Of a stretch of 64,000 nt of DNA, positions 18,597 to 51,040 are shown one piece after another. Numbering within the stretch: the stretch's first letter is position 1; each line of letters opens with the position of its first letter. Below the pieces are notes generated by a model, which saw nothing but the letters and a program-made list of their open reading frames with translations, was not told the DNA's origin and searched no databases. Source of the stretch: Hydractinia symbiolongicarpus. Taxonomy: Eukaryota > Cnidaria > Hydrozoa > Anthoathecata > Hydractiniidae. A program made the position numbers and the translations under genes. Where the stretch lies: positions 32,605,501-32,669,500 of the forward strand of contig NC_079880.1 of assembly GCF_029227915.1 (NCBI RefSeq), written 5' to 3'.

Positions 18597-18660
18597 TTGA
18601 AGGATTAATCGAGTACTTACGTATGATTATGGCGCGCCTGAGGGGACAAAATTAAAAAAA
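18597..18660 (+). repeat. left TIR of composite transposon
   Basis: Uninterrupted copy: TTGAAGGATTAATCGAGTAC, TTACGTATGATT, then GGCGCGCCTGAGGGGACAAA. Identical by eye to the right copy across two blocks of 31 and 32 bp. It is followed to 18830 by a poly-A/poly-T tract with no gene. Confidence 0.85.
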
Positions 18661-18914
18661 CCCAAAAAATAAACAAAAAATCTTTTTTCCAAGAAAAAAA
18701 CATTTTTGATATTAAAATATATTAAAAAATACGAAAAAAATTTTTTTTTCGCAATTTTTTTTCTTTTTAGTTGAAAAAAATTATTACTTTTTGCAAAAAA
18801 TGTTTTTTTCTTTTTTTGTGGCACCTGTCAATCAATCAATCAAAATTTCAACAAGTATGACTGTTCGGCATTTTATTTAAAATTTCGCGCAAAAATGAAG
18901 ATGTTAGAAAAACA

Positions 18915-19107
18915 ATGATGGCGGTATATGTTCCACATGTTACAGCTGCAATTACGTTTCTAAATGGTTTAGAAAGAAACAGGTTTTTGCCCTTGAATGA
19001 AATCGGGCAGGAAATTTACATCATTCAGTTTGACGAAATTATATGGAATTTAGCATCAATATACTTAGAGTACTTACAAGTGCCTGATATAAGTGATCGT
19101 ATTCTCG
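18915..19107 (+). CDS. DDE integrase/transposase (IS3EU-like), exon 1
   Basis: Two ATGs in a row (18915, 18918) open a 64-codon helical N-terminal segment ending ...VPDISDRIL, with donor CTCG|GTAAGT. One base is left over, which fits exon 2 at 46062 and gives a smooth join into EVIRSLQNSYEELV. The assignment to the integrase gene rests on position just inside the TIR, phase agreement over the intron, and the helical N-terminal region known in related fish and cnidarian integrase-like proteins. The last base and the donor are supplied by the inserted foldback element, whose end begins GGTAAGT. Confidence 0.6.
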
Positions 19108-22100
19108 GTAAGTCGTCCACGTATTACTTCCTGAATATAAAGGAGATATAGTATTCAACATGTGTTAGACCTATGTACGTTCCCAAGCCTTGTGGAGATA
19201 ATGATGTGCTATTCTCCATAAAGCACAAGTGTAGTAGCCTGTAGTAGAGCGTAGTAGAATGTATTTCTCTGTAGTAAAGCGTATTTCTCTGTAGTAGAGT
19301 GTAGTAGCCTGTAGTAGCTTGTAGTAGAGTGTAGTAGCTTGTAGTAGAGTGTAGTAGAGCGTATTTCTCTGTAGTAGAGCGTATTTCTCTGTAGTAAAGC
19401 GAATTTCTCTGTAGTAGAGTGTAGTAGCGTGTAGTAGAGCGTAGTAGCGTGTAGTAGAGCGTAGTAGAATGTATTTCTCTGTAGTAAAGCGTACTTCTCT
19501 GTAGTAGAGTGTAGTAGCGTGTAGTAGAGCGTAGTAGCGTGTAGTAGAGCGTAGTAGAATGTATTTCTCTGTAGTAAAGCGTATTTCTCTGTAGTAGAGT
19601 GTAGTAGCCTGTAGTAGCTTGTAGTAGAGTGTAGTAGCGTGTAGTAGAGCGTAGTAGAATGTATTTCTCTGTAGTAAAGCGTATTTCTCTGTAGTAGAGT
19701 GTAGTAGCGTGTAGTAGAGCGTAGTAGCGTGTAGTAGAGCGTAGTAGAATGTATTTCTATGTAGTAAAGCGTATTTCTCTGTAGTAGAGTGTAGTAGCGT
19801 GTAGTAGAGCGTAGTAGCGTGTAGTAGAGCGTAGTAGAATGTATTTCTCTGTAGTATAGCGTATTTCTCTGTAGTAGAGTGTAGTAGCATGTAGTAGCTT
19901 GTAGTAGAGTGTAGTAGCGTGTAGTAGAGCGTAGTAGAATGTATTACTCTGTAGTAAAGCGTATTTCTCTGTAGTAGAGTGTAGTAGCCTGTAGTAGCTT
20001 GTAGTAGAGTGTAGTAGCGTGTAGTAGAGCGTAGTAGAATGTATTTCTCTGTAGTAAAGCGTATTTCTCTGTAGTAGCGTGTAGTAGAGCGTAGTAGCGT
20101 GTAGTAAAGCGTAGTAGAATGTATTTCTCTGTAGTAAAGCGTATTTCTCTGTAGTAGAGTGTAGTAGCCTGTAGTAGTTTGTAGTAGAGTGTAGTAGCGT
20201 GTAGTAGAGCGTAGTAGAATGTATTTCTCTGTAGTAAAGCGTATTTCTCTGTAGTAGAGTGTAGTAGCGTGTAGTAGAGCGTAGTAGCGTGTAGTAGAGC
20301 GTAGTAGAATGTATTTCTCTGTAGTATAGCGTATTTCTCTGTAGTGGAGTGTAGTAGCATGTAGTAGCTTGTAGTAGAGTGTAGTAGCGTGTAGTAGAGC
20401 GTAGTAGAATGTATTTCTCTGTAGTAAAGCGTATTTCTCTGTAGTAGAGTGTAGTAGCCTGTAGTAGTTTGTAGTAGAGTGTAGTAGCGTGTAGTAGAGC
20501 GTAGTAGAATGTATTTCTCTGTAGTAAAGCGTATTTCTCTGTAGTAGAGTGTAGTAGCGTGTAGTAGAGCGTAGTAGCGTGTAGTAGAGCGTAGTAGAAT
20601 GTATTTCTCTGTAGTATAGCGTATTTCTCTGTAGTAGAGTGTAGTAGCATGTAGTAGCTTGTAGTAGAGTGTAGTAGCGTGTAGTAGAGCGTAGTAGAAT
20701 GTATTTCTTTGTAGTAAAGCGTATTTCTCTGTAGTAGAGTGTAGTAGCCTGTAGTAGCTTGTAGTAGAGTGTAGTAGCGTGTAGTAGAGCGTAGTAGAAT
20801 GTATTTCTCTGTAGTAAAGCGTATTTCTCTGTAGTAGAGTGTAGTAGCGTGTAGTAGAGCGTAGTAGCGTGTAGTAAAGCGTAGTAGAATGTATTTCTCT
20901 GTAGTAAAGCGTATTTCTCTGTAGTAGAGTGTAGTAGCCTGTAGTAGCTTGTAGTAGAGTGTAGTAGCGTGTAGTAGAGCGTAGTAGAATGTATTTCTCT
21001 GTAGTAAAGCGTATTTCTCTGTAGTAGAGTGTAGTAGCGTGTAGTAGAGCGTAGTAGCGTGTAGTAGAGCGTAGTAGAAGGTATTTCTCTGTAGTAAAGC
21101 GTATTTCTCTGTAGTAGAGTTTAGTAGCGTGTAGTAGAGCGTAGTAGCGTGTAGTAGAGAATAGTAGAATGTATTTCTCTGTAGTAAAGCGTATTTCTCT
21201 GTAGTAGCGTGTAGTAGAGCGTAGTAGCGTGTAGTAAAGCGTAGTAGAATGTATTTCTCTGTAGTAAAGCGTATTTCTCTGTAGTAGAGTGTAGTAGCCT
21301 GTAGTAGTTTGTAGTAGAGTGTAGTAGCGTGTAGTAGAGCGTAGTAGAATGTATTTCTCTGTAGTAAAGCGTATTTCTCTGTAGTAGAGTGTAGTAGCGT
21401 GTAGTAGAGCGTAGTAGCGTGTAGTAAAGCGTAGTAGAATGTATTTCTCTGTAGTAAAGCGTATTTCTCTGTAGTAGAGTGTAGTAGCCTGTAGTAGCTT
21501 GTAGTAGAGTGTAGTAGCGTGTAGTAGAGCGTAGTAGAATGTATTTCTCTGTAGTAAAGCGTATTTCTCTGTAGTAGAGTGTAGTAGCGTGTAGTAGAGC
21601 GTAGTAGCGTGTAGTAGAGCGTAGTAGAATGTATTTCTCTGTAGTAAAGCGTATTTCTCTGTAGTAGAGTGTAGTAGCGTGTAGTAGAGCGTAGTAGCGT
21701 GTAGTAAGTAGAGTGTAGTAGCATGTGGTAGCTTGTAGTAGAGTGTAGTAGCGTGTAGTAGAGCGTAGTAGAATGTATTTCTCTGTAGTAAAGCGTATTT
21801 CTCTGTAGTAGAGTGTAGTAGCCTGTAGTAGCTTGTAGTAGAGTGTAGTAGCGTGTAGTAGAGCGTAGTAGAATGTATTTCTCTGTAGTAAAGCGTATTT
21901 CTCTGTAGTAGAGTGTAGTAGCGTGTAGCAGAGTGTAGTAGCCTGTAGTAGCCTGTAGTAGAGCGTAGTAGAATGTATTTCTCTGTAGTAAAGCGTACTT
22001 CTCTGTAGTAGAGTGTAGTAACCTGTAGTAGAGCGTAGTAGAGCGTATTTCTCTGTAGCAGAGTGTAGTAGCCTGTTAAGAAGCGCAGGGGTTTACAGCA

Positions 22101-22490
22101 GTTAAGCTTCATACAAATAGTTTCAAAAAATATTCTAACTTTTCAGTTAAATTGAACTGGGGAAAACGGCGTTCAAGTGACTACCATCGCCATGATGGTC
22201 TCGCACTATATACAAACGAAAAATTATCTGGACATCTTCCCACAAAAGATTCTTATCAGTACATCAATTGTAGTTGGTAGATAAACAAGCCATGATGGCC
22301 GATTCGCCAGTGGTCATCATAATATCAGAGACAAAGAAACAAATTTAGCAGACACGCCTAAATATTCATTTTCAATTTCACATCTTGTGTTTTACTGCGC
22401 TTACCCAACGAGACATGATCAGTTTGTTTGAGTCTAACAGAATACATCACAAGTAATGTATGTTCCAAATACCATTAGTGAAGGCGAGTG
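19107..22490 (+). repeat. left inverted terminus of the foldback element
   Basis: Composition in order: 124-bp unique outer end; satellite 19231-22076; about 100 bp (22080-22185) absent from the right copy; then about 300 bp from GGTCTCGCACTATATACAAA that is inverted at 39545-39860 with roughly 15 differences by eye. Homology fades near 22490. Confidence 0.85.
19231..22076. repeat. 10-bp-phased satellite array, left copy
   Basis: Built almost wholly of decamers starting GTA: GTAGTAGAGT, GTAGTAGCGT, GTAGTAGAGC, GTAGTAGAAT, GTATTTCTCT, GTAGTAAAGC, GTAGTAGCCT, GTAGTAGCTT. The phase is kept without a slip from 19231 to about 21705 (near 250 decamers), shifts once, then continues. Decamers combine into higher-order units of roughly 90-130 bp. 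Long open frames on the minus strand (722, 655 and 239 codons, rich in Y, T and L) follow from the stop-free decamers and are not considered genes. Confidence 0.95.
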
Positions 22491-22534
22491 ATCAGTATTA
22501 CGTAAGAGATACGGTTGTTTCCGTAAATTAGACC

Positions 22535-22870
22535 CTTGATAAAAATTTAAAAAAAAGCTCCTGTTTTAGAAGCAATCCATACATCTCAGATTCAGTTGTT
22601 TCGGTGGATTGGGCCATTGTTAAGCATTCAGGAAAAAGCTCCTATTTCTAGAAGCAATCCATATATCACAGATGCGGTTATTTCGGTAAATTGAGCCATT
22701 GATAAACATTCAGGAAAAAGATCCTGTTTCTAGAAGCAATCTGTACATAATAGAATTACTTGTTTTGGTGAGCTAGGCCATTGATAAAAATTCAGGAAAA
22801 TGGTCATGTTTCTAGAAGCAATCTATACATAACAGGTTCAGTTGTTTTGGTGAATTGGGCCTTTCATAAC
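22535..22870. repeat. tandem repeat, period 81-82 bp, four copies
   Basis: Each copy has GGAAAAAGCTCCTGTTTCTA, GAAGCAATC, TACAT, a CAGTTGTTTCGGT-like segment and GGGCCATTGATAA. Copies are aligned at 22557, 22638, 22720 and 22802, with noticeable divergence between them. Confidence 0.85.
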
Positions 22871-22904
22871 CTTTTAGATAATACTTTTTGACATTCAATT
22901 TTGG

Positions 22905-23115
22905 CCGGAATATAAAATTTCAGAACAAAAGTTACCGAATTTGGCGCTTGTCTATGATAATATCAGTTAAACGCTCCATGTTTCTCTTGTTTCGTTCAAT
23001 TTTGACAATATAAAACGAATTTTAGACCAAAAATCACCGAAGTCGGCACTTGTCTATGCCATTATCAATTAAGCGCTCCATGTTTCTCTCGTTTCGCTTA
23101 ATTTTGGCCGGAAAA
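22905..23115. repeat. tandem repeat, period 102 bp, two copies
   Basis: CGCTCCATGTTTCTCTTGTT appears at 22972 and, slightly changed, at 23074. It is preceded in each copy by GGCGCTTGTCTATG or GGCACTTGTCTATG and followed by an AATTTTGGCCGGAA-type segment. Confidence 0.8.
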
Positions 23116-23997
23116 TGAAATGTGTCTAAGGTATTGTCACATATACGAACTCTACTTGTCTTGTTTCGATGAATTAAGACCTGAATACTTTTTTATATGC
23201 CGATTATCTCTTGGTTGAAAGAAACCTTTTTTTGTTTCACAACATTAAAACTTGTTAACGTATACCGGAACAAAGTTTTCGGCAAATATGTATCACGCCG
23301 TCTTCGCTAAGGATTAATCTGTTATGCTTTCGAATATAGAAGAATCCGTTTTTTGTGAAACAATTGTTAATATATATTGAACGATTGTAGTTTATAGTTG
23401 TAGAGTCTTGATGAAATCTAGTGGTGTTTGTGTATTTCACAGACTAAAAGCTACTTTCTAAAAATATGCTCATGCACTACGAAAGTCAAAACAATTAGCA
23501 TCCGTGGCATCACAGAATGTTTCACAAAAAGATTGCTACTTCTTTATGAATTGCTTTTTGTTAATATAGGAAGTTTTTTATATGATTACTTCAAAAATAA
23601 TATGATCAAGCTTGTGGTCATCCTTTTTAATATATTACATAGGGAATGATATTGAGACATTCACTTTCCGTTTGATAGCCCATTGTGATTGATTTCAATT
23701 TATTTCCACAAATGAGTATGTATAATACAGTGTCACGTATGAGGTGTGCTAGTTTTACGTATATTATACGTCTTGTATTATTCTAAGAAGCAATTAACTA
23801 CTTGTTAAAAAGGGAAAAATATATATTCTACAAATAGTTGAAATATAGTATAGAGCTATTAGTTTTTCTCTTCTTGATTAAAGTAGAATGAAAAGTCCTT
23901 GCAGGCTAAAAGATTTCGGAACAAATTCAATTTATTTCATTCCCTTTATAGTTCAGAGACATACTTTAATGACTTGACACAAGTTGATAATATAAAT
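23116..23997. other. interior of foldback element, nothing recognised
   Basis: AT-rich sequence between tandem repeats and mini-Helitron units. Short open frames around 23255-23649 have no family signature. No RNA gene or inverted repeat was noticed. Confidence 0.5.
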
Positions 23998-24157
23998 TGA
24001 CTAGTCGTTGATTAGTCGCCCGTCCTTTATATTTACCTGTCGCAGCAAAGTGAATAAAAATATATCGCATTTGATATTCGTGTTTCCGCAACATCATTTT
24101 CTAACTCAGCGGGGGGTCCGCGCAGAGACAGACAGACGACGGCTATTATTATAGAGA
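23998..24157 (-). mobile_element. mini-Helitron-like unit, tandem copy 1
   Basis: On the minus strand it starts TCTCTATAATAATAGCCGTC, has GTCTGTCTGTCTCTGCGC, a GGAAACACGAATATCAAATG-like stretch and AAAGGACGGGCGAC, then CTAG. The terminal stem is degraded. It abuts the next unit directly at a CTAG junction. Confidence 0.7.
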
Positions 24158-24345
24158 CTAGTCGTTAGCCCGTGGAAAAATCCACGGGGTCGTCCGTCCT
24201 TCAAATTAACCCGTTGCAACAAAGTGGACAGAAATATATCGCATTTGGTATTGATGCGCATTTTAAAAATTCGTGTTTCCGTTACGGGACACGGCTTTCG
24301 CGGACACACAGACAGACAGACGACGGCTATTATTAAATAGATTAC
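24158..24345 (-). mobile_element. mini-Helitron-like unit, tandem copy 2
   Basis: Same family, with an intact terminal stem (CCCGTGGATTTTTCCACGGG in minus-strand sense) followed by CTAACGACTAG. The 5' start AATAATAGCCGTCGTCTGTC lies near 24340. It is head-to-tail with copy 1, which fits rolling-circle-type amplification. Confidence 0.75.
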
Positions 24346-24792
24346 AAACAATAGAACATACTGTGTGAAATGAGTGAGAAGGATAAGAAGGAAAACGAAG
24401 GAGGAAAAAGCCCGTTTAAACAAGATTTCGGATACGATACGAAATCTTAAAAAAATATGTAATCCCGGAAAAGAGCTATGGTAGTTCAAATAATAAATAC
24501 AGACGATAACAGCTACATTATTCCGGGTCACTGTCTGAGCCGGACAGGGAAACATGCCTCTCTTCAGGATTAACCTTTTCGCCATTGGTAAGCACTGAAA
24601 TATAAAAAAATGTCATAGAAAAGCATTTGAGAAACCATATCTAATCCTAAGTTTTAAAACTGCAAGAGCTGTTGTTAAGATATCCCAATCAGAAGCACAC
24701 AATAAAGAAGAATCCTGAACATTTGACAAAACCAAAAAAAAATAAATATAAATATAAACTAGCACAATTAGGCAAAAGAAGCATTCAGCATA

Positions 24793-25410
24793 CCTCATTC
24801 GCATAAAAGTTGAAGCTATTGACATCTATCTCATTTTCCAATTATACTGTAAAAAAGCCAGTAGCTAGACATTTCTTTTTTGAGTATGCCGACTTCTTCT
24901 TCGCATCTTTTCAACAACTCATTTTCGTTGTCGCCACTATTTTTTAAACCCTACAGTACCTCAACCCGAATGTTTTCACAATGAGTGTAAAATCATGATA
25001 TATGAAGTGTCAAGAAATGTAACAACAATCCTACTTACCATCAATCTCTGTATTTTCCATCCATAAGAAATCAAAATCACTGTCTTCGCCAGACTTCTCC
25101 TCAACACGAGGTACACCAATGTCCCCGCAATGGTGTTATAACATTTCATGAAGTCTTTATCAACGTCTCCACAGATTTACATACTATGTAATTCAATCCT
25201 CCTTTTATTATCTGCCTTCTTTGTTTCTTGTTTGTCCTTATATGCATTGCTTCTGCCCATGAAATAAGGTGTCGTTGTCCTTTTCGCTTGCTGTTGTTAT
25301 TTTCAAGTTTTTCACGGAGCAACTTTTCCATTTTGCTAGCAGGATAATTCTTTGTTGAGATCCACTCTATATCTTTTGCATGAAACAAGAAGATATATTC
25401 AGATGATAGA
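24793..25410 (-). pseudogene. remnant of an unidentified protein gene (exon-like blocks)
   Basis: Three coding-like blocks on the minus strand. Block 1 (about 25388-25198) encodes EWISTKNYPASKMEKLLREK, a KRKGQRHLISWAEAMHIRT stretch and QIIKGGLNYI, before a GTATGT donor-like site. Block 2 (about 25131-25040) encodes HHCGDIGVPRVEEKSGEDSD, FDFLWMENTEID and ends at G|GTAAGTAGG. Block 3 (about 24835-24793) encodes ENEIDVNSFNFYANE before GAG|GTATGC. Acidic and basic patches and matching donors suggest a real, now decayed gene. I do not recognise the family. It may be downstream of the SAP exon at 38214-38463 on the same strand, but that link is speculative. Confidence 0.4.
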
Positions 25411-27229
25411 ATATATCTTACCTACTTTAATCATAGAAACTTTGCAAGATTGAATTGAATTGAAGAACACTTTCGAAAAGTGAATTTAAATTTCATGAAA
25501 TAGATTTTCGCCATGGAACCATTGTGTGATTGTTTTTTGAAGAGTACATACACATTTTCAATGTGTTTATTGAAATTTCAATACATTCTTGTTTCAATTA
25601 TTCCTTTTGAAATTTACTATATTGATCAGGAAGGAACCATTTTTAGCTCGAAATATACTTGCTCTGCACTTCACTCACAAGTTACCTAGTGTACCTAGTG
25701 TAGATAAACAACCACCTCCAATTTACATTCGCTCAGCGGTCATTTTTTTAAATAATGGAACAATATTCAGCAACCTTTCCCAACAAACTATCTCATGCTG
25801 ATTACGTAAGTCTCAAATGATTTTCCATTATAGAATACTTCATAGAATGTTATTAAACAATTGATATTTTATACTCTTAGCCTTTTACTTTGTGCAAATT
25901 TAGTACTATACTGTGAGTTCTTGTGTTATGGTAGTTATCCTTTTTAAACAATTTAGTTTTTTGCGGTTGTCTATACCATGGCAAACAACTCTGTTTGTGA
26001 GTGACCACGGTAAAATACACAGTATGGATTGGTGGCCCCCTAACTCACCGCTGGAGGCAAGAAAGAAGGTAAGATAACTCTTGTACGCGCCTAACTGACT
26101 GGCCATCTCCAAAAGCCACCCCCACCTCTCCCCCTCCTAGCTAATGACGGCAGTTTATTGTTTTCCACTTTCATATTAGAATCTTGATTACCTGTAAATA
26201 AACATTACCTACGTCCCCTAAACGACTATCGCGCAGAGAAACGCACAGTTCTGTGAAAAAACGAGTCTGTCTAGCCACAAATTTAGCCAGGAGACCCAGC
26301 GTTTTCCCTTCAAACCGCCTTTACGATCAATTTTTTCTTTCTCTATCAAAGAAAGCTTAAATAACTAGGCTAGTCATAAAGTATGATATGAAATGTTATG
26401 GAAGGTTGAGCTGGGTATCCTGGCTACAGACTCAGCCTAGTGTAAGTGGCGGCTTCTCAAGTTTGTAGATACCTGATGATGACGTTAATAAATAAATCTT
26501 AGTGTTATATTTTCTTGTTTGAAACAGGGAAGAGGATGGGGAACAAGGATGCAGTAGTCCGTAAACCGCGGAGCGCCCTGCAGTGCAGCGGATAGACGCA
26601 GCAGCGATGCGCTCCGTCCTGACATAGTCACCAGGTCTCTATATTATATGGATTCTCGGATTTCCTGAAAAAATCATCAATATATCCATTTTTCATACAT
26701 ATGGTCAATATGTCAATATTTAGAAGCCCGTTCATTGCAGTGCGTATGGACATAATATCAATTCTACATTATCGATATATTGTCCGTTTTTTATAGTGAG
26801 TATGTTGTAAAAACAAAGCCCTTAGAAGTCAAAAATGTCATAAGGAGAACATTTTAAACCTTGTCAAAACCCAACAACTTTACTATTCAAATCTGGCTGT
26901 TCAAATCTTCGTTGTTGAACCATTAAAAAGCAATGTAAAGAGCCTTAACTTTTGATTAATCACGGTAGAAAAATTCGAAGAGCTTAAATTTCTGATTTGT
27001 TTCCATTTTAAAAAAGCAGCAAAAGATAAATAAGAATCTCCTCCATATCGTTACTTACCGGTACTGGCTTGGATAGAACTTGATGATGTGGTTACAAAAG
27101 ACTGGGTAAGAAAGCGTACGGCGGTTCTTATGATCAATGGCAATTAAAAATAATTAAAATACCGGAGATTAATGTAGTTTATTCTATTACACCGCAATTT
27201 TGCACACAAAAAGATAGAATAAGTGTATT
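25411..27229. other. interior of foldback element, no gene recognised
   Basis: Mixed sequence with a short GC-richer patch around 26560-26630. No supported coding sequence, RNA gene or inverted repeat was found. Confidence 0.4.
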
Positions 27230-27395
27230 ACTGAATGAATTACAAATTTTGAATTGATTTGGATTATTGTTTGTTGCAGTATGAAACTAATTACTGCACA
27301 CCCTGTTGTTCTTTAATTTGAACTACCACCTTTTAAAGATGGATTGGATTCGAACCAATAACTTTCATAGTCTTGCAACAATAGACTTAATTTAC
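27230..27395 (-). mobile_element. tRNA-derived SINE-like repeat, copy 1
   Basis: Shares about 135 bp with 32879-33016. On the minus strand it contains a canonical RNA polymerase III B box, GGTTCGAATCC, within a tRNA-like T arm (ATTGG TTCGAAT CCAAT). No A box could be placed, so it is probably truncated or decayed. Confidence 0.6.
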
Positions 27396-28189
27396 TTGGA
27401 ATTCACGAAATTCAATGTCACTTCAAATAAAAACACATCATAAAGCTTGTTGTTACAAAATTAATTGTGAGTTAAAAACCGTAGCTAAGTATTACAGGTT
27501 TGTTGAAACTGTTGTCTCCTTGAATTAACAAACTTTAGACTTTCGCCAAATTTTTTTTTAAAGTAAAGGGTGTAGCCACCTATCTGAAAACTTTGTTGCA
27601 GCCAACTGGTTTTCGGCTATTTTCGCTTTTTAGCCAGATTTTTTTAAAAATTCACGTTAATTTAATGTCCCTTATTAAAGTGTAACGTAAATATCCAGGA
27701 CGTTTAAAAAGCTACTAGTTGTATTTTTCTGACATCGCAACAGCGATTATAGCCAGGGACGAGGTTGTATTATTATAACCTCGCTACGGACGACGTTGTA
27801 CTTATATAACATAACACAAGTTCAGCTGGGAAGAGGCCAGGGAAGGGCTGCAGAAAGTTAGTATGTATCACCATGCTCGGCAGCATGGCTGCATGTATTA
27901 ATGTAACTGTGTCTCTTTTATTATTTGCAGAGTAATTAATTACCCAATGGGTTATGGCATATGCTCGTCATTCATAAAACAACGCATCCATCCATACCGT
28001 ACCGTACGCATTTAATTTTTGCAACGTGAAATTCATCGTTAAACAAATTTTAAAATTCTGGTTAAATACTAAGAATTAAAACGCAAAGGTCTACTAAATA
28101 TCTCGATTAACATTTAAGGTCTTTTTTTATCACATGAAATGTGTACAACTGTTCTAAATTTTAACGAGTTTGTTCGGAAACAAAAAAGC

Positions 28190-29530: not shown

Positions 29531-30162
29531 TTCAGAAAAATACTTGTGTGTATCATATGTTTTTTTTGCTGTTCATAGGAAGCAGTTTAATGTGATTTTG
29601 AACTTTCAATATTTTTAAAACTAAAACCATGATAAAAATGATAAAAATGTATATGGACTTTTTTTGTTCGTAGCTGTTAGAAAAACTATTGGAGGGACAT
29701 AGTTATTAATATAGTCTAACTAGCTAAATAAAATTGAGTTATGACTGTTATGGTTGCTACGAAGTTAAGTTATATTGTGCTGTCCTAGGCCCGTTCTTAA
29801 GGCTCTCTAGCCATTGAACGCTACGACTTTCTCATAATAACCGGTTGAAAATAGCTATTAGGTAATAATAGTATGAATAGAATTTGATTTAGCTAATATT
29901 GGGTATATTTTGACTCCTAAAAAGAAATAGTACTCTAGCATTTTTTTTTTTTGCAAAACGGTAAAATTTGTTGAGTTATTTCTAAAAGGTTTTAGTAATT
30001 CTAATAGACTAAGGCAGTTCACAAGATAGTTAGCGTATTGCTCTGAATAGCCCCGTCATCATGCTCCATCCATACTACACGAAGGTAGCATAGAAGCACA
30101 CAGTATGTTACAAAAAAATTATGGTCCTTTTTTGAACATTATATTTAATTAAAACGTATATA

Positions 30163-30342: not shown

Positions 30343-30489
30343 TACATACATTTCAATAAAATAATTTGTTATAATTTTTCTATACCGAAAAATCGCCGCT
30401 TTATTAAAAGAAAAATGCTATTCAGTTGATGTCGACATAAGTATGATATATAAAGGTAGCAGAACTACTTTAGGATCCACTGACAGAGA

Positions 30490-39235: not shown

Positions 39236-39544
39236 ACCCAGTGAACGGCTATCATGAATTGCGTTTGAACATATAAACTACATTGAAAAGGCTTCATTTA
39301 TTTTTTCCATGAAGACTTTTGTAGTGTTTTCGCAAATACTAAACACGGTAGAGCAATTTTAAAGTAACAATTTCTGCACTTGAAAATTATGAAGTATGGA
39401 TGACATTACACACTGGTTGTTCACGTTCCAGCTCAAAGATAGAAATTTTGACTATTCTTTCATAAAACCGCAACTAGACATTCAACAATCAAGAGCAAAA
39501 TTAATATCCCCAAAGTAACTTGTGAGGAATTGACGATTGATGTA

Positions 39545-41728: not shown

Positions 41729-41735
41729 ATTCTCG

Positions 41736-42549
41736 GTAAGTAAACACGGTAAACAGACACTAATGATTTAAAAAACTGTAAAAATTAAAATAAACTTGCT
41801 ATGTGGTAGCGAAGCTCTTAAAAGAACTGTTTTTGATTTAAAATAAGATTTACTTGATAAATAACTTATATATAAACTTTATAACTCCTTTATCTTCAGG
41901 TGCCTTCTTCTAACTATCGTCCGCATGGTATGTTACAAGGAATTGCATTTCGGAAATGTTCCCGGCCAGTTCGGGAAAGTGCGGGCGGTTTCCGGGTGAC
42001 AACCGCCAGTTTAATTCGAAAAGTCGCCCGAACTCGCCCTTATATATGCGGGCGTTTGCGGCTTATCGGCACCCTCTTAAACTTCATTGCAACTTCAGTT
42101 TTAATGAAAACACAGGGAACAGCCTTTCATTACCGGTTCAGCTAAAATAATATGTCAGTCATTTTATTTGCACAAAAAGTTTTCAGGAAAATATAAAAAA
42201 AGATGTAGCTACCTAGCTAACTGCATTTAGCATAACACTTTTTGTTTAAGAATATTGTTGTAGCCAAACTGCATTTTTATACTCTCACTTTCTAGCCAAA
42301 GATAGGAGCTAGCTAAATGGCTACAGTCTCAACACAAAAATAAATGGTGGGTAGGAGGATAAAAACTGTTATACCATACAGAATAGTAATAAGTAAGGTT
42401 CTAGCTAGCTAGCCTCCAAAATCTTCGTTCCTAGCCAATAATTCTAAAACTGGTGCGTTTAAGATCTGTACGTGACTAAAAACGTGACAATATATTTATC
42501 TTAACATTTTACACCATACAAAAAAACAATATTACAAAAATAAAAAGCT
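41736..42549 (+). other. original intron 1 of the integrase gene
   Basis: The sequence beginning GTAAGTAAACACGG right after the second ATTCTCG is the pre-insertion donor and intron. Together with the last bases before 46062 it makes an ancestral intron of about 820 bp. It includes a GC-rich patch with CCCGGCCAGTTCGGG-type palindromes (41940-42060). No exon is required here. Confidence 0.6.
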
Positions 42550-42681
42550 TATTCTCGGATCCGGGTTAATCACTGACGGTAATTTTCTGCGCATGCGCGA
42601 TTTACTGCAGTGAAAACAAACTCTCCTGGAGCAGTCATTTTAACCTAGCGAAGCTGGAGTGAACACATAGAAGTTTTTAAA

Positions 42682-42883
42682 ATGCCAAATAGTTGTGCTG
42701 CTTTTGGTTGTTCAAACCATAATTTAATGGAAAATAAACCTGGATTCTACAGATTTCCGAATAACAACCCAGAACGAAGAAAAATGTGGATAAGTGCATG
42801 TAAAAGGAAAAACAAAGATGGTACTGCTGACTGGAACCCAACTGGAAAAAATGTTTATCTCTGTGGGAAACATTTTACAACTG
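42682..42883 (+). CDS. THAP-DDE transposase, exon 1 (THAP domain)
   Basis: Encodes a THAP zinc finger, the sequence-specific DNA-binding domain of many transposases. MPNSCAAFGC gives ligands C5 and C10; CGKHF gives C61 and H64. The P and W of GFYRFP and KMWISACK sit at the expected positions. The exon ends in phase 1 at ACTG|GTAAGTG, leaving a G that joins GG at 43037 to make the first codon of GKPVKDP. The start is the first ATG after the TIR. Confidence 0.85.
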
Positions 42884-43036
42884 GTAAGTGTTATTTATAA
42901 AATTTTATTAATAAGAAAGCTCTCTTCATTGTAAAATAGACCATGCTCTGTGCTATATTATAAGAGATTAGTAACTCTTTTAGGCTGGCATTGTTTAGCT
43001 AGCTAGCTAGGTACAGTATTTGTTTTTCTTTATTAG

Positions 43037-43968
43037 GGAAACCAGTAAAAGATCCTGCACATCCTGACTACATACCAACTATATTTGTGTATACACAAAA
43101 TAATTGAGAAAAAAACAAGAAGAAAATAGAAAGATTCGAGTCAGCCAAAAAAAGAAGCCTAGCAAAAGCAAGAACACCCGTCGCACCAAAAAAACAGCGT
43201 ACCTTAAATTTTGTTTCACCAGGAAAGCCACCATTACAGCAAAGTAACACATTTATTTCACCACCACTATCACCATGTTCTAGTACTACATCTCTGATGT
43301 CACCACTGCCAGAAATGCCTGAAATGGAAGTAGACTTTTCTCTTTCTTCACAAACACAACATTTAACACCAGTAACTATATCAAGACCAACAACCTTAAA
43401 TGCAAGTACCCAGAACACAAGCTCAATTTTGGATAATAAACATTTAATTGAAATAACAAATCTGACAGAAGCTCTTCAAAAAGCAAAAATTACAGTTAAT
43501 GATCTTGAGAGTAAATTCATATGCTATGAACATCTGAAAAAAAAGCCAGCAAAATTTAAATATAACACTGGAATAAACAAAGATCAATTTGACACTGTTT
43601 TTGACATGGTGAAAGATTCGTTGCCAAAAAAATTTCGATCGAAGATGCCTTTCAAAGATCAGTTGCTGATGACTCTTGCAAAGCTGCGTTTGAACCTACA
43701 ATTTGAAAATATGGCAGACCAATTCAACTGTCCAAGAAGTACTGCCCATGAAGTATTCCAAAGGTGGATCGACTTACTCTCTACAAAATTATCATGGCTA
43801 ATACATTGGCCTGATCATGATGCAAGCATTCACTCTCTTCCAAATGTTTTCCGACAATATTTTCCAAGGTTGACTGGTATTATTGATTGCACTGAAATTT
43901 TTATTGACAGGCCAAAAAAGTCCTTTATAATTGCAATATTGGGAACTGTAAAAAATTTTTTATCATAA
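43037..43968 (+). pseudogene. THAP-DDE transposase, exon 2 (stop codon, truncated catalytic domain)
   Basis: It continues from TTATTAG|GG with GKPVKDPAHPDYIPTIF, the usual tail of a THAP module. An in-frame TGA at 43105-43107 follows; the same frame then stays open through a lysine-rich linker and a helix-turn-helix region (FKDQLLMTLAKLRLNLQF, CPRSTAHEVFQRW). It reaches GIIDCTEIFIDRP, the first catalytic Asp of the DDE_Tnp_4-type nuclease. After that about 15 unrelated residues precede a stop, so the remaining catalytic residues are missing. A tRNA-like sequence begins 18 bp later. The transposase cannot be active. Confidence 0.8.
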
Positions 43969-43985
43969 GCAATACAATTGAAAAA

Positions 43986-44060
43986 GTCTTGACCAGGAAT
44001 CGAACCTGGGTTTCCTACTGTTTAAAACAGTGAGGTGTCCTACCACTGGACGATCAAGAC
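43986..44060 (-). tRNA. tRNA-like sequence (probably tRNA pseudogene or SINE head)
   Basis: 75 nt with a perfect 7-bp acceptor stem (GTCTTGA/TCAAGAC), D arm (GTCC AGTGGTA GGAC) and a perfect T arm (CCAGG TTCGATT CCTGG, with B box GGTTCGATTCC). The anticodon arm is abnormal: about three extra nucleotides on each side make a long palindromic stem (ACTGTTT...AAACAGT). If a 7-nt loop is imposed, the anticodon would read TTA, matching UAA. A normal functional tRNA is unlikely. It sits where the 3' half of the transposase should be. Confidence 0.55.
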
Positions 44061-44103
44061 AGATGTGGCTATAAAAATAGCCGGTTTGACGTTTAAAGTC
44101 ATG

Positions 44104-45909
44104 TCACTGACTGTGTTGAGATACCTTTTGTTTTCTGGCCTTTCGACACAAGGGACAATACCATGAACCTTTTGGGACTCCTTTCAATTTAACACAGCTC
44201 AAATGAAACCATTCATACTTGCAAGATGTAGAGTCACAACCAATAAATGTTTCGTCATTAGGATTGTATTCAGACTGACAGAGACAATACAATTTTTCAC
44301 TTGCATTTGCTTGAGGAGGAGGAGGTGGAGCTTTAACAACTTTACGCTCTAGTCTTCTTGTCAATAACTCTGGTATAATGTGTCGGAGATAAAACTGTTC
44401 AACTTTGTCCATATTCAAATTGATGAAGTTCACATCAAACAAAACCTCAACAGCATGTAACCAATGTGGAGTCCACACAATAAAAAAACAGCTTTTGCAA
44501 TTGAAAACAAACATTTGAAACTGTACTTGATAGTAATACCTGTGCTCTTTTTTTAACTTTCCTTCAGAATTCATAACAAATTTGTTGTCAGATACAGAAG
44601 CAGCGAAGGAAACAATGTTGCGATAACTGTACGGGCACTTGATTTCAATTAACTTTTCTTCCTTATGACAATCACATGTGAATATTCCATCAGGTGTAGC
44701 CCCAATATACGTCCGTTCTGGTACAAGTTTCAACCCACAATCAACAATCTTTGCATTTAAATGGTTACTACGTTTTAAAAAATCAGCGACAGCATGTTTC
44801 TCATGGTCAAGGCCCCAACGTAAAGAGGATACAGTGGTGGATACAACAGATGAAATTTTACAAATCCTTTTGATTAGGGACTCTGATGGAGTTTCCAAGT
44901 TAGTGTGGAGAACATCATATACTTTTGATGCAGTAATTCTGCCAACACGTATCTCATGCCAAATAAAACTTTTCGATTGTTTCGTACTTGAGTTGTAAAT
45001 GTAATCAACAACCTCTGCTGACAAAGTCATGTTATTATAAATATCTCTTGACATTTGTTGTAACTTGTCACCATCTTTATCAATGTTGTTACTGTTAAAT
45101 AGCGTTCTCAATGACTTTGGTAACTTGGCTCTTCTAGGTGGTTCATATATTGGCACGAATGGTTTATAAAAATCAGAGAATGTATGCAAAACAATGGATT
45201 TTTTGTCCAATTTAGACAGTTTTGATAAAAACCTTGCCTTTTCTTCATCAGTTGGTGGAACATTACTACCAGGAAATTTATTACTGCTACGATTGTTTTT
45301 CTTAAAGTTCTCAACAGCCTTCTCTGAATAAAATTTAATGTCAGAAATCTTCTTCGGTGCAACTTTTTTGACAAAATCGACATTCCACTTACATGCTTCT
45401 TCAGTACATGCTTTCTTAGTGAATCCAGCACGAACAGCAGCCTCGATTTTAAATAACAAAGCCCCTATGTGACTACATGACTCACCAAGCCCAGCCATAC
45501 ATGTGCAGTGGGCAGAAAGAACATTAACATTTTTTATGTCCACAATAATCCAGGGTATGTGAGGATCCTCATTTACTCTTTGAGAAGGCATAACTTCTGC
45601 CTTCAGTAAAATATATGGCCATGTTTTGTCTTTCTTAAAGAAAAACACAGTTCTAACCCATCCACTAACAAATTGATTGTGGGCTTCCAAACTTTTTCGA
45701 CTCTTCATAGCTTCTCTTGTAAAAACGCCAGGGGTGTTTACCAAGTAATCATAAACCTCAGGGTACTCCAAGTTTGGCCACTTCGAAGGATCGTTGATCC
45801 AAGCATCTGCTGGCAATTGGTATGGACAAGTATCCAAATTAACAATTTTTAGCTTATTAAAATATCTTGTTTTCGCTTCGACACTTATTTCTTCAATGTT
45901 GTAACTCAT
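44104..45909 (-). CDS. SWIM-YqaJ-PHD protein of the ISL2EU-type element
   Basis: An intact single-exon frame of 601 residues. A SWIM zinc finger lies at about 135-147 (CTCMAGLGESCSH; ligands C135, C137, C145, H147). A YqaJ/lambda-exonuclease-like nuclease lies at about 316-480, with R321, E370 (GLDHE), D407 (ATPDGIF), E422-x-K424 (IEIKCP) and the Q461/Q463 helix (YYQVQFQM). A proline run follows near 528. A C-terminal PHD finger lies at about 541-588 (CLCQ, GCDS, WFHLSC, WYCPLC), a histone-tail reader fold. It probably acts in the nucleus on transposon DNA ends or intermediates; its exact role in transposition is not established. It starts just inside the right TIR. All motif residues are present. 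Confidence 0.88.
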   Translation of the reverse strand: MSYNIEEISVEAKTRYFNKLKIVNLDTCPYQLPADAWINDPSKWPNLEYPEVYDYLVNTPGVFTREAMKSRKSLEAHNQFVSGWVRTVFFFKKDKTWPYILLKAEVMPSQRVNEDPHIPWIIVDIKNVNVLSAHCTCMAGLGESCSHIGALLFKIEAAVRAGFTKKACTEEACKWNVDFVKKVAPKKISDIKFYSEKAVENFKKNNRSSNKFPGSNVPPTDEEKARFLSKLSKLDKKSIVLHTFSDFYKPFVPIYEPPRRAKLPKSLRTLFNSNNIDKDGDKLQQMSRDIYNNMTLSAEVVDYIYNSSTKQSKSFIWHEIRVGRITASKVYDVLHTNLETPSESLIKRICKISSVVSTTVSSLRWGLDHEKHAVADFLKRSNHLNAKIVDCGLKLVPERTYIGATPDGIFTCDCHKEEKLIEIKCPYSYRNIVSFAASVSDNKFVMNSEGKLKKEHRYYYQVQFQMFVFNCKSCFFIVWTPHWLHAVEVLFDVNFINLNMDKVEQFYLRHIIPELLTRRLERKVVKAPPPPPQANASEKLYCLCQSEYNPNDETFIGCDSTSCKYEWFHLSCVKLKGVPKGSWYCPLCRKARKQKVSQHSQ

Positions 45910-46061
45910 TGTGTCATAGACCTTCTCTTACAGTAAACTGCAGTGAAAAAAGCTTTCCACAGCTAGCGCAAAACGTTTGTTTTCACTGCAGTTACTCGCG
46001 CATGCGCGAAGATTGGCCAATCTTCAGCGGTGTGACGTCAGCCCGGATCCGAGAATACCAG

Positions 46062-46557
46062 AAGTTATTAGGTCACTACAAAATTCTTATGAAGAACTAG
46101 TGAAACATCGTTGTCGAGGTGGTGATAAAAGCAATGCTTACATTAGTCCTAGAGCTGTGACTGGTGAGGTTGGCAGACCAAAGTATGAAGTGCCAAAGGA
46201 ACAAGTCATTAGCTTGAAAAAGATCGGATATCAATGGAAGGACATTGCTCAAATGCTTGGTATTAGTATCAAAACACTCCGTCGTCGTCGTAAAGAATTT
46301 GATTTACCTTTTGGAGAAGCAGAATATTCAGACATAACTGATCAACAACTCGATGAAATAGTTCGAGAAGTGCTTTTGATACTCCCAAATTGCGGCGAAA
46401 GAATGGTAATAGGTGCAATTACCAGCAAACATATTAAGGTGAAAAGAGAAAGATTGCGACAATCAATCATGAGGGTAGACGCGTTGAGCAGGGTGATGAG
46501 ACGAAGGAATTGTATATAAAGAAGGAGGTACAATGTGAAATCTCCAAATTCGCTGTG
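46062..46557 (+). pseudogene. DDE integrase/transposase (IS3EU-like), exon 2 with one stop
   Basis: It begins at CCAG|AAGTT, only a few bases after the ISL2EU insertion, and completes the codon left by exon 1. It encodes a helical segment (IRSLQNSYEELVKH), a GRPKY motif, a helix-turn-helix (WKDIAQMLGISIKTLRRRRK) and a YSDITDQQLDEIVREVL region typical of fish and cnidarian integrase-core proteins. An in-frame TAA (46517-46519) stands where relatives have a glutamine or lysine before RRRY; the frame continues through it to SPNSLW. The donor is TGTG|GTAAGTAAG. The single stop is one change from CAA or AAA, so inactivation looks recent. The acceptor's pyrimidine tract is poor because the other transposon inserted beside it. 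Confidence 0.75.
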
Positions 46558-46630: not shown

Positions 46631-47402
46631 GCATATGGATGGTCATCATAAGTTAATTAGATGGCGCATTGTGTTTCACGGATGTATAGATGGTTATTCA
46701 AGATTAGTAACATTTCTCAGATGTAATTCAAATAACAGAAGCACTACCGTATTAGATCTATTTCTGGAAGCCATCAATAAATACAATGTCCCTAGGAGAA
46801 TTCGCACTGACCACGGTACAGAAAATATTGAAGTAGCACGATGGATGCTGGGACACTTTGGTGTGGCCAGTAAGCCTGTCATAACTGGACTATCAGTGCA
46901 TAATCAAAGAATCGAAAGGCTTTGGCGCGACTTAGTCATACAGGTGGTTGATTATTTTAAAGGCATTTTTTATTTCATGGAGCAGCAAGAAATGTTAGAC
47001 CCCGTAAATGATGTAGATTTGTACGCATTGCATAGCGTGTTTTTGCCTAGAATTAATCGTGCTTGCGAGGAATTTGTGAAGCAGTGGAATAATCATCCTT
47101 TATCAACTGAAGGCAATAGAACGCCGTATCAGCTGTGGACTCAAGGCATGTATATGAACTGGCATTCTTCTGATAACGGTTTGAGACAGATAATGGAGGA
47201 AAATGAAAACATTGGTACACATGGAGTCGAACTTGACGGTCCAGCTCCTTTAATAGATTCGATCAACAACGTAAATGTTCCTGAGATAGCTCTGAATTTA
47301 CCAGACAATTTTATGCAAAATATTGACCCACTTTCTGAAGACCACAATCACGGAATAAACTTGTACATTCAAACTCGTGAATTATTGGTACATGCGCTAT
47401 GA
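46631..47402 (+). CDS. DDE integrase/transposase (IS3EU-like), exon 3 (catalytic core)
   Basis: Joined at TCTTTTAG|GCATATG, it completes W and reads HMDGHHKLIRWR, the first catalytic Asp. It continues with CIDGYSRL, RIRTDHGTEN (second Asp, about 56 residues later) and VHNQRIERLWRD (Glu, 34 residues after the second Asp). This is an rve-type DD(34-35)E core that cuts and joins DNA. A conserved FLPRINRACEEFVKQWNNHP, then RTPYQLW tail follows, a signature of this family. It ends at TAG after HAL (47402). The whole three-exon gene would be 1461 nt, 486 codons plus stop. All catalytic residues are kept; only exon 2 carries the stop. Confidence 0.85.
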
Positions 47403-47939: not shown

Positions 47940-48154
47940 TTAAAAACTCACAAACGTCCAAAACCCTGTCGTAGCATCAATTGCCTTTTTGAAATCGTTA
48001 TATGCATCATGACAAATTGGAATCGAAAGTATCGAAAGACACGTATCTGCATCAGGCAATGGTTTACCTCTCCTGTTGAACTTTAGAGTAACGCTATTTT
48101 CTAAAGGAACTGGCGAAGAGCAACAAAATACTAATAGGTCTTTTGTTGTGATAG
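47940..48154 (-). CDS. HECT E3 ligase-like protein, exon 5 (C-lobe with catalytic Cys)
   Basis: The acceptor TTGTTTTAG|CT completes the codon left by exon 4. It reads LLVFCCSSPVPLENSVTLKF, NRRGKPLPDADTCLSILSIP and CHDAYNDFKKAID, then stops after FVSF. ADTC..L..P is the HECT active-site motif: the Cys accepts ubiquitin as a thioester. The order (N..GKPLP.A.TC) matches HECT C-lobes of the G2E3-like group. It ends the gene, facing the integrase stop. Confidence 0.85.
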
Positions 48155-48333: not shown

Positions 48334-48363
48334 CTTCATCAACTGTATCTTCATTGCCGTTTG
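48334..48363 (-). CDS. HECT protein, exon 4 (30-nt micro-exon)
   Basis: GTATCTCAG|CA ... GATGAAG|GTATTT, 30 nt, encodes NGNEDTVDE between split codons on both sides. It joins exon 3 (ending ...VMSL plus G) to exon 5 in frame. Its smallness makes it easy to miss; support is frame agreement and good splice sites. Confidence 0.6.
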
Positions 48364-48482: not shown

Positions 48483-48861
48483 CTAATGACATAACATAGT
48501 CTTTAAAGAACACCAGTGCTTTCTCTTCTGCCTCCTTTATCGCCTTAGGTAACTTAAATTGATTGTAAAGATCTTCGGCCTGAATCACAAGGTCAGATGT
48601 GGATTGAAATACATCTTTCCAAATGCTTCGATTGTTTTTTAGCACACTGATAAGGGAGATGGTTTCAAAACCTTCTCGTAGTTGCTCTGTTTCTTCATGT
48701 CTCATTTTAAAGATGCAATATATAGTTAACAGATACAAAGCTGTGTCCTTGGTCTTAGTTGTAAGCATGGAATGCCCAAATCCAGCAGCTTTAAGTTCAC
48801 ACTGTAAGAAATCATTACTTTGATATGCAAACATTTCTTTGTCATCATCACATGATCGTAT
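48483..48861 (-). CDS. HECT protein, exon 3
   Basis: The acceptor GTTTTTTTCAG|ATACGATC opens a 126-codon block: FLQCELKAAGFGHSML, KTKDTALYLLTIYCIFKMRH, REGFETISLISVL and a helical tail KAIKEAEEKALVFFKDYVM. The donor is TTAG|GTATAT. This is the part of the HECT domain between N-lobe and C-lobe, helical and moderately conserved. It is phase 0 with exon 2. Confidence 0.75.
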
Positions 48862-48985: not shown

Positions 48986-50125
48986 CTGCTGTATTATGTG
49001 TCGTAATTCAAAATCTGGAAAATCTTGATCTGTTACAACAGAATATGCTTCTGCAATATCATTAGTAATCAAAAAATGGACATATGCAGGAGATAAACCA
49101 ATAACTGGTCCTCCGTTATGTAGAATGCTATGTGCAATAACTTTGCCAGCATAGAGATATAACTCACTGTCCAAGTGGCATTCATTGTGAACAGGAACTT
49201 TATGATTTATATCTCCCTCAAACAATTGAATGCTTCCTTCTCCACGTATCAATCGATCAAGTAATATGTAGAAATATTCCCTTTTTGGACCATCTGCATC
49301 CATGCCTTCTTCTCCATTTTCGAAGGTTACTTCTGGGAAGTAAGATATGTCAATTTGACCACGTTTATGTTGAATTAAAGTGGTTTTTAAATATGTATCT
49401 GACCTGTTGATTGAAATTTTTTGTTTGTTCCCTGTTGCCGCATGAATTGTACGAATATCAACCAAATTCTTCATCACAAATTCTGTACTGCAGCCAAGTT
49501 TTTTTTCTGATTGTTCAAGCACAAGATCCTTTGATGAACTTTGAGATGATGACTCAATTTGGCCTGTTGAAGTATAGTTATTTACATCTTTAATTAATCC
49601 AAATGCTGGCGTTTCTAATAATCCATCGTCACTGTCAGATTCAACCTTTTCTTCCTCTTCATAGCAATTGATGAATGCACTAAAATAACTTTTAGTTATG
49701 TCAATTAAAGACCTGATATATATGCACCTGTTTATACCAGGAGAAGACAAATGCTTTAAAACTTTTCCATTTATGTTATTTATGCCTGAAGGATTCATTA
49801 ATTTTTTATGTACAGGTTTCATAAATGAAAATTGATTCTTGCTTGGAAGTTTATCTTGGAACTTTTTCAAAAATCGTTTCTCTGATTTCCTCCTCCTGAG
49901 CTTCAAGTAAAACTTCGAAGGCATTAACAATAAATCCTGATGATTGTAAATGTTCCTTTAATTCACCTTTCGGTATAACTTTAATCTTTGGTGAAGGAAT
50001 TAACACAAGATCTTTCATGAATGTTGCAGATTTCCTTCGCTTAGAAGTATTACTATTGGTATTAGTAAAAGGTCTCTTGGTGGTAGATGGTAATCGTCTG
50101 CTGAGAGTGTTCCGATCTGCGTGTT
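48986..50125 (-). pseudogene. HECT protein, exon 2 (N-lobe) with a one-base frameshift
   Basis: From ATTTTAG|AACACG it encodes a basic region (RPF...SKRRKSATFMKDLVLIP), then an acidic and serine-rich linker (EEEEKVESDSDDG), and the HECT N-lobe. N-lobe landmarks are ISYFPEVTFENGEEGMDADG (with PKREYF following, the GxDxGGxxREFF motif), LFEGDINHKVPVHN, LYAGKVIAHSILHNGGPVIG and VHFLI. The frame slips by one base in an A5 run near 49862-49873 (IFEK | FQDKLPSK). Without that base the five exons total 1926 nt, 641 codons plus stop. The donor after QQ is CAG|GTGG, weaker than the others. Confidence 0.75.
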
Positions 50126-50312
50126 CTAAAATAATTCAAAAATGACATTACAAAGGTCACAAAAATAGCTGTTACCCATACCAGCTCTTTCGGGAAAAAT
50201 ATATATTGTAGTCATTGTAACTTGGTTTTTAGCTAGATTGCTACTAGCTATATAAGTCACAAAACCAAAAAACTGAAAGTGGTTTGTGAAACAAAATAAC
50301 GTAGCTTTTTAC

Positions 50313-50475
50313 CATTTTTCTCTTGTCCATTTGGACGGAAGAGTAAATGTACAGCTTCTTCAACATTGTTTGATTCGCTGTTCTGCTCGGGCTTCTTTTT
50401 GTGCTGTTCCAAAGCACGAACAAGGTTGCTGAGGCCTTCAAGTGCAGAGCTCATGTTGTTTTCTTTCTGCGCCAT
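50313..50475 (-). CDS. HECT protein, exon 1
   Basis: ATG at 50475 (MAQKENNMSSALEGLSNLV) starts 54 codons, including a helical stretch and AVHLLFRPNGQEKN, with donor AATG|GTAAAAAG. One base carries over and joins exon 2 (G plus AA). It lies about 290 bp inside the right TIR, mirroring integrase exon 1 at the left end. The N-terminal part has no named domain that I recognise. Confidence 0.7.
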
Positions 50476-50759
50476 TTTAGGAATGCCACAGGAGGGCGAA
50501 CAAAGTAATAATTTGCAGAACAGGTTACGCTGTCGAACAAAAATGATTGATTGATAGAGCCTGGCCGTCGGACAAAAATGGTTCTCCAACTGTTTTTCAT
50601 TTTTTTTCAAAAAAATGAACAATAAAATAAATCAAATTGTTTTTATATCTTTTTGTTTATTCGTTGTTGTTTTTTCATTATTATTTTTTAAAAATTTCAA
50701 AAAATAAGTATTTTCTTCAAAAAAACTGTTTTTTTACAAAAATATTCTTTTTTTAAATA

Positions 50760-51040
50760 ACAAAATATTTTTTTAATTTTGTCCCCTCAGGCGCGCCATA
50801 TATGATGATTGATCCAGATTTTATTTTCCAAATCTTCTGCGTAAGCATGAGGGTGAGAGCGAAGCTCGATAACCCAAAATCCTACTTTGAAGACAGAACG
50901 TGACTCGCTGGCCGAGTGTACCTGCTAAAGCCAAAAAGGCATAGGGCAGGGAGGGCAGGGCACCCTCATGCTTACGCAGAAGATTTGGAAAATAAAATCT
51001 GGATCAATCATCATACGTAAGTACTCGATTAATCCTTCAA
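50760..51040 (-). repeat. right TIR of composite transposon, split by an insertion
   Basis: Inverse of 18597-18660. The inner block (TTTGTCCCCTCAGGCGCGCC) lies at about 50778-50797 and the outer block (ATACGTAAGTACTCGATTAA, TCCTTCAA) at about 51013-51040. They are separated by a DIRS-related insert. The outer edge abuts the DIRS element. Confidence 0.85.
50799..51012. mobile_element. about 210-bp DIRS-related inverted-repeat insert
   Basis: Its ends are long inverted arms: ATGATTGATCCAGATTTTAT, then TTTCCAAATCTTCTGCGTAA, GCATGAGGGTG and the inverse ending near 51012. The middle contains AGCGAAGCTCGATAACCCAA, AATCC, which is also in the DIRS terminal region at 55587-55608. It looks like a small non-autonomous DIRS derivative that inserted into the TIR. 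Confidence 0.65.

Follow-up and report, generated by a model that had tools for sequence, protein, structure and literature searches.

An IS3EU-type transposon with two converging genes

The stretch of Hydractinia symbiolongicarpus DNA analysed here, 64,000 nucleotides in length (C6:32605501-32669500; hereafter the window), contains a copy of a DNA transposon of the IS3EU type, in which an integrase-type transposase gene and a gene for a predicted HECT ubiquitin ligase converge within a single pair of terminal inverted repeats (TIRs; Table 1). We hold with high confidence that this is a damaged copy of a two-gene element, and that transposase and HECT genes are likewise paired in several diverged families of this genome, including a very young one. 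Genome searches covered 480.9 Mb of sequence in 76 contigs.

The ends of the element were placed by blastn alignment with an uninterrupted copy at another locus (L039), to which the window was 97.9% identical over positions 18628-19102 and 98.8% identical over positions 46055-50800. The TIR sequence, exact over 33 bp, is TATGGCGCGCCTGAGGGGACAAAATTAAAAAAA. Identical ends were found at eight further loci of the genome, and chance is an improbable source of the inverted match, as the same ends recur at nine places with target duplications. An earlier note on this DNA had described 65-bp inverted repeats bounding an element at 18597 and 51040. A matching repeat containing GGCGCGCC is indeed present at both ends of the element, but only its inner 33 bp constitute the TIR, bases 1-34 belonging to an unrelated palindromic miniature inverted-repeat transposable element (MITE), and the boundaries were corrected to 18628 and 50800 by the alignment with L039. 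Whilst all 65 bases match on both sides apart from the interruption, a genome search with the 65-bp repeat returned 40 matches, of which 17 were TIR ends and 23 were MITE ends matching the outer 34 bases, one of these being the right flank of the window element. With the window's own two ends excluded, the other 15 of the 17 TIR ends lacked the outer part, the outer 34 bases recurred elsewhere without the TIR, and the target duplications lay directly outside TATGG and CCATA. A 65-bp TIR can therefore be given next to no credence, and it was rejected as a composite of the 33-bp TIR and a MITE end. The MITE itself forms six inverted pairs elsewhere in the genome, with starts 231 bp apart and ends of TTGAAGGATTAATCGAGTACTTACGTATGAT. 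The transposon is inserted inside one such MITE, and therefore both of its flanks carry MITE ends.

Table 1. Features of the transposon copy, its inserts and its immediate flanks, in window positions.
Feature	Position	Strand	Basis
Palindromic MITE, short end piece (outer half of the 65-bp repeat)	18597..18627		genome match of outer 34 bases
Target duplication TATGAT, left copy	18622..18627		bases directly before TATGG
IS3EU-type transposon copy, entire, swollen by nested inserts	18628..50800		blastn against uninterrupted copy L039
Left TIR, 33 bp, begins TATGGCGCGCC	18628..18660	+	inverted match 33/33 to 50768-50800
Transposase exon 1, 5' part, cut by nested insert	18915..19102	+	alignment to L039 exon, gene model
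27-kb nested insert in transposase gene, not an original part of the element	19103..46054		absent from L039, site continuous there
22.6-kb element, inverted tandem arrays, flanked on both sides by ATTCTC, inside nested insert	19107..41728		
ISL2EU-like element, THAP + HTH_Tnp_4 gene facing YqaJ + PHD-like gene, inside nested insert	42552..46055		
Transposase exon 1, 3' part, helix-turn-helix (HTH), in-frame stop 46517-46519	46057..46557	+	alignment to L039, gene model
Transposase exon 2, integrase core, D-D-E codons 46638, 46809, 46914	46631..47402	+	PF24764, E-value 1.3e-76
HECT exon 5, C-lobe, active-site cysteine codon 48041-48039	47948..48154	-	gene model, alignment to L039
HECT exon 4, 30 nt	48334..48363	-	gene model, alignment to L039
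HECT exon 3	48483..48861	-	gene model, alignment to L039
HECT exon 2, N-lobe start, 1-bp insertion in window copy	48986..50125	-	gene model, alignment to L039
HECT exon 1	50313..50475	-	gene model, alignment to L039
Right TIR, 33 bp	50768..50800	-	exact inverted counterpart of left TIR
Target duplication TATGAT, right copy	50801..50806		bases directly after CCATA
Palindromic MITE, rest	50807..51040		same MITE as 18597..18627

The transposase and HECT genes

The first exons of the rve-type and HECT genes start 287 and 325 bp inside the element ends, in agreement with the earlier description of two converging genes beginning just within them, and the D-D-E core described for the former was recovered as a PF24764 domain. 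In L039 the transposase gene comprises two exons (827-1515 and 1589-2360) encoding 486 amino acids; the L039 gene models have exons in phase, GT-AG introns and predicted splice sites. The D-D-E residues were invariant across the five families aligned. Further families of this genome (A to D) and a locus, L081, are described below. An HTH was found by Pfam in the window transposase open reading frame (ORF), and no zinc-finger Pfam match was obtained in that ORF (minus the first exon part) or in the longer ORFs of families A-D. A Pfam scan of transposases from six families (window, A, B, C, D and L081) matched neither Ulp1 nor OTU. When the transposase core was compared with PDB sequences, the best E-value was 0.056, to the integrase of human T-cell leukaemia virus type 2 (HTLV-2), and no relative emerged from viral contigs scanned with the family D transposase.

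The HECT gene of L039 has five exons on the strand opposite the transposase gene and, when spliced at predicted sites, encodes 643 amino acids. This protein matched PF00632 with an E-value of 1e-8 (35.6 bits, cut-off 23.9) over profile positions 13-303, that is 291 of 306, and through this domain and the C-lobe cysteine it is identified as a HECT ubiquitin ligase with predicted transfer activity. Taken singly, the HECT exons of the window gave no Pfam HECT match, and the window family was absent from the results of the genome search with Pfam. The lobe motifs and ADTC active site reported earlier were borne out, the motif of the window family being DADTC. The active-site cysteine is one of 10 invariant columns in a four-family alignment with 17-21% identity to its first row, and it is also aligned in L081; a GF-type C-terminal tail is present in the HECT proteins of the window family, A, D and L081, but not C. 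Relatives in the PDB were AREL1, Itchy and WWP1 (best match E 0.006), and with these E3 ligases the transposon proteins share the N-lobe/C-lobe order and a TC active site, preceded in some by A or S. They differ in being very diverged and, in family A, in carrying a CUE domain ahead of HECT. A structure prediction for the family D HECT exon, made from a two-row alignment, had a mean predicted local distance difference test score (pLDDT) of 35.

Copies of the window family

Nine TIR-bounded loci make up the window family, namely the window copy and L039-L046, L047 being the outer flank of L046 and not a separate copy. Every copy begins with TATGG and finishes with CCATA, and in all nine the hexamer directly preceding TATGG is repeated directly after CCATA, giving perfect 6-bp target duplications: TATGAT (window), ATATAT, CATGAG, TAATAC, TATAGA, GTTTTA, GAAACG, AGATCC and GAAAAC. 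Target duplications were read for this family only. The elements L039-L046 measure 5225, 2877, 5798, 6158, 4296, 2818, 5147 and 5051 bp, respectively. A size of about 6 kb, as anticipated in the earlier note, thus suits the five copies without a large deletion (5.1-6.2 kb), but not the three deleted ones (2.8-4.3 kb) or the window copy at 32.2 kb.

Integrase-type transposase sequence (PF24764) was present in all nine copies and converged in each with the HECT gene or a remnant of it, so that the recurrence of the same TIRs, convergent genes and a constant target duplication, which had been proposed as a check, was found at nine loci. HECT pieces from exon 1 through to the cysteine exon were retained in six of the nine (window, L039, L041, L042, L045 and L046), with in-frame stops in L041 and L046. 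The HECT frames of L039, L042 and L045 have no in-frame stops and few missing bases, and the transposase frames of L039, L040, L043 and L044 are free of in-frame stops or gaps. An internal deletion has removed the middle of HECT from L043, and a common deletion (L039 element coordinates 1881-4241) has left only its 5' part in L040 and L044. The assignment of the HECT gene to the element was upheld on two counts: no TIR-bounded copy flanking only one of the genes was found, given that L040 and L044 keep the 5' end of HECT, and matches to the window HECT exon of at least 65% identity outside the nine loci were confined to two decayed places with stops (C9:19.50 Mb and C6:14.10 Mb).

Given that the window does hold nested elements, the two genes might have been brought together by chance, through the nesting of one element with an integrase and another with HECT. 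Against this, both genes, or what deletions have left of them, are found at all nine loci that share the TIRs and have target duplications, and the gene pair is also present in families A, C and D; on the strength of these shared-TIR loci and the family A TIR pairs, chance nesting was rejected as almost certainly wrong.

Related families and genome-wide pairing

Family A, whose TIRs start with TATGGAGTCATG, was represented by 41 TIR ends, 40 of them identical at 66/66 positions, and by 19 inverted TIR pairs. Ten of these pairs enclose both genes, seven at a size of 6.47-6.53 kb, and here the transposase and HECT genes lie on the same strand; in families C and D they are convergent. Four family A copies match a fifth at 100% over 3120 bp, with a 641-codon HECT frame open, and identical copies (L048-L064) occur on different contigs. 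Because of this complete identity, family A is very young, and live activity is plausible. Its HECT protein gave Pfam matches to HECT (5.6e-14) and to CUE, a ubiquitin-binding fold (1e-5), whilst those of families C and D matched HECT at 2.2e-10 and 5.9e-18. Families A and B begin with TATGG at the end that was read. A run of same-strand family A TIR ends, 3744 bp apart, was observed at C10:7938486-7954529. In family B (L074, L077), the transposase frame of L074 was scanned and gave, close to the N-terminus, a weak match to the SAM domain that fell below cut-off, possibly a protein-protein module.

A Pfam HECT search of the genome returned 141 pieces, merged into 93 loci, and these were compared with a partial transposase list of 150 PF24764 hits, scored out of 705 candidates. 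With a co-localisation distance of 6 kb, 37 of the 93 loci were found near a listed transposase hit, the random mean being 0.37 and the maximum 3 in 1000 placements. The HECT list was extended with matches to the window, family D and family C proteins (28 of 53, 15 of 30 and 94 of 114 entered, respectively), the matches left unentered being further pieces of entered genes or copies in the Pfam list, joined or omitted by hand. With the extended list of 192 HECT loci, a HECT lay within 6 kb of 68 of the 150 transposase hits listed, against a mean of 0.75 and a maximum of 5 over 500 random placements; identical copies were counted separately, hence the 68 are not independent events. The length of C15 was estimated for the random placements, as was that of C13 in the comparison of the 93 loci. 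The 68 pairs comprised 42 convergent, 24 same-strand and two divergent arrangements.

Divergence and selection

Pairwise identities ranked the families in the same order for the transposase and HECT proteins, a comparison of four taxa without a formal tree test. Identity was highest between A and D (transposase 0.40, HECT 0.31), followed by the window family with A and with D (transposase 0.35 and 0.34; HECT 0.20 and 0.20), and lowest in pairs with family C (transposase 0.25-0.28, HECT 0.15-0.16). Within the window family, the ratio of nonsynonymous to synonymous substitution rates (dN/dS) of HECT between the L041/L046 subfamily and the rest was 0.40-0.59 in the longer comparisons, and ranged from 0.27 to 0.79 in the short L040 and L044 comparisons; that of the transposase against L041 or L046 was 0.52-0.67. 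An excess of synonymous changes was assessed in three chosen comparisons, with 21.5% synonymous sites assumed, and in HECT it was supported at p = 0.0007 (L039-L041) and p = 0.014 (L042-L046). The HECT gene looks like a long-term resident of the element.

Several observations weigh against the two-gene account of the element. The synonymous excess of the transposase was not significant in the sole comparison tested (L039-L041, p = 0.24), and among the youngest copies the dN/dS of HECT was often about 1 or greater, as expected after insertion. L040 and L044 share their deletion and sit at two different target sites with different duplications, so it was in its HECT-less form that the derivative was copied or moved, and the HECT ligase is not needed in cis. 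No HECT match was found within 6 kb of 82 of the 150 listed transposase hits. Eight of these 82 are family A copies, located in shortened TIR pairs or in the C10 cluster, and in the one other that was read, L081, the transposase faces a gene that is HECT-like by profile comparison (N-lobe E 1.2e-6, probability 91%; C-lobe E 1.3e-4, 54%), split across two overlapping frames and without a Pfam HECT match. Likewise, 124 of the 192 HECT loci had no listed transposase within 6 kb, to which host HECT genes and the partial transposase list both contribute, the two not being separated.

The multiplication of a derivative without the HECT core to two loci, and the large share of transposase hits lacking a detected HECT, would suit a captured host gene carried as an inert passenger, neither needed by nor useful to the transposon. 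We consider this improbable, as the pair recurs across families despite an identity of only 15-31% between their HECT proteins, all four families aligned keep the cysteine, synonymous changes exceeded expectation in both HECT comparisons tested, and the family A copies identical over 3.1 kb retain an open HECT frame.

Possible roles of the HECT protein

The transposase would bind the TIRs, excise the element and insert it with a 6-bp stagger; the staggered insertion is read from the termini and duplications, and a cut-and-paste course is suggested by the enzyme class. Since the cysteine and both lobes are kept, the HECT protein may ubiquitinate a protein in trans, and on balance we favour, with some reserve, a working E3 ligase made by the element, whose target in trans would be a host protein that restrains transposition, for instance a factor of silencing, DNA repair or chromatin. 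We prefer a host restriction factor on two grounds: HECT-less derivatives continued to spread where full copies are present in the genome, and related elements are equipped with other anti-host tools, such as the TET/JBP genes of fungal IS3EU elements, for which an escape from methylation silencing was proposed (PMC12730594).

The main rival to a host target is that HECT controls the element's own transposase, through its turnover, its release from the strand-transfer complex or copy number. The presence of both genes in one element and their like ranking in divergence would agree with this, as would the Ulp1 or OTU domains of the ubiquitin pathway that are fused to Ginger1 transposases (PMC2836005). 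A self-regulator acting in trans would, however, act on the copies that lack HECT too, and we regard control of the transposase as unlikely.

A ligase directed at a host protein could be taken further, in that HECT may be ancestral to the IS3EU elements of this animal lineage and present as the second gene in nearly all of them, long selected to disarm a host protein of silencing or repair, the element thereby running its own targeted protein-degradation (or signalling) system. This broader proposal is tentative, and we doubt it somewhat more than we credit it. If true, identifying the substrates of the ligase would offer a direct route to the host protein that limits these elements, and it would be a caution that the diverged HECT genes of such genomes may belong to transposons and not to host E3 expansions.

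Damage, nested inserts and neighbouring features

Relative to L039, the lesions of the window copy comprise the nested insert, the in-frame stop in the transposase gene and, in HECT, a 1-bp insertion in exon 2 and the net loss of 14 bp from the last exon; the copy is a disabled relic. The nested insert, which enlarged it from approximately 5.2 to 32.2 kb and splits the transposase gene, has junctions that fit a 2-bp AT repeat, or no duplication. The 22.6-kb element within it has long inverted tandem arrays of TGTAGTAGAG-type units with matching termini GGTAAGTCGT, and no stop-to-stop frame of more than 168 amino acids was found between the arrays. The second element in the insert pairs a THAP/HTH_Tnp_4 gene with a YqaJ/PHD gene, a combination which we take to be named ISL2EU; its PHD match was slightly below the Pfam cut-off. 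It has TTCTCGG ends, and a second TTCTCGG start at 41730 suggests two stacked elements. Between its two genes, ARAGORN called a tRNA (43985-44060, minus strand) whose TTA anticodon would decode UAA, a stop codon; a suppressor tRNA, a decayed tRNA and a tRNA-derived repeat are all candidate explanations.

The transposon is adjoined by a DIRS-like retrotransposon (51294-55363, minus strand) encoding a tyrosine recombinase (PF00589, slightly below cut-off), a reverse transcriptase (PF00078) and, by position, a gag-like ORF. At 4693-5748 (minus strand), the window contains a host-type gene with an SDA1 HEAT-repeat domain (1.5e-132).

Comparison with known systems

Transposons with ubiquitin or SUMO proteases are known. 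Among these, Ginger1 resembles the window family in being an integrase-type DNA transposon of hydra and other animals with a tie to the ubiquitin/SUMO pathway and overlapping sizes, and it has 4-bp CCGG/CCGT duplications and TGTNR ends (PMC2836005). In contrast, the duplications of the window family are 6 bp long and unrelated in sequence, its ends are TATGG and its HECT ligase is encoded by a separate gene, and membership of Ginger1 was rejected in view of the lack of such 4-bp duplications, TGTNR ends or a Ulp1/OTU match. Polinton/Maverick elements span 15-20 kb and carry genes for a DNA polymerase B and a capsid of their own. They were likewise rejected, L039 being 5.2 kb long and mostly filled by its two genes, though no search aimed at polymerase or capsid profiles was made.

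In termini, duplications and integrase core, the window element matches an IS3EU-type DNA transposon. No paper pairing IS3EU with HECT was found in a literature search that had Repbase and most subscription journals outside its reach. The superfamily is known, and Repbase entries may describe the HECT pairing. As reported in the IS3EU/GingerRoot study of Kojima and Bao (2023), the superfamily has TA..TA termini and usually 6-bp duplications, and the window family agrees with it in these and in its integrase-type DDE transposase, its HTH-like N-terminus and the absence, by Pfam, of a zinc finger such as the HHCC N-terminus; it differs in its HECT gene, a term absent from the main text of that study (PMC10045372). 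A parallel in architecture is offered by the TET-bearing IS3EU elements of rust fungi and Tuber, which have TIRs of more than 30 bp ending in TAYGG..CCRTA, 6-bp duplications, and transposase and alpha-kinase genes in opposite orientation with the TET/JBP gene between them (PMC12730594). The window family shares with these fungal elements its 33-bp TIR of the form TATGG..CCATA, its 6-bp duplications and a second gene opposing the transposase, yet the opposed gene is an alpha-kinase in the fungi and a HECT ligase in Hydractinia.

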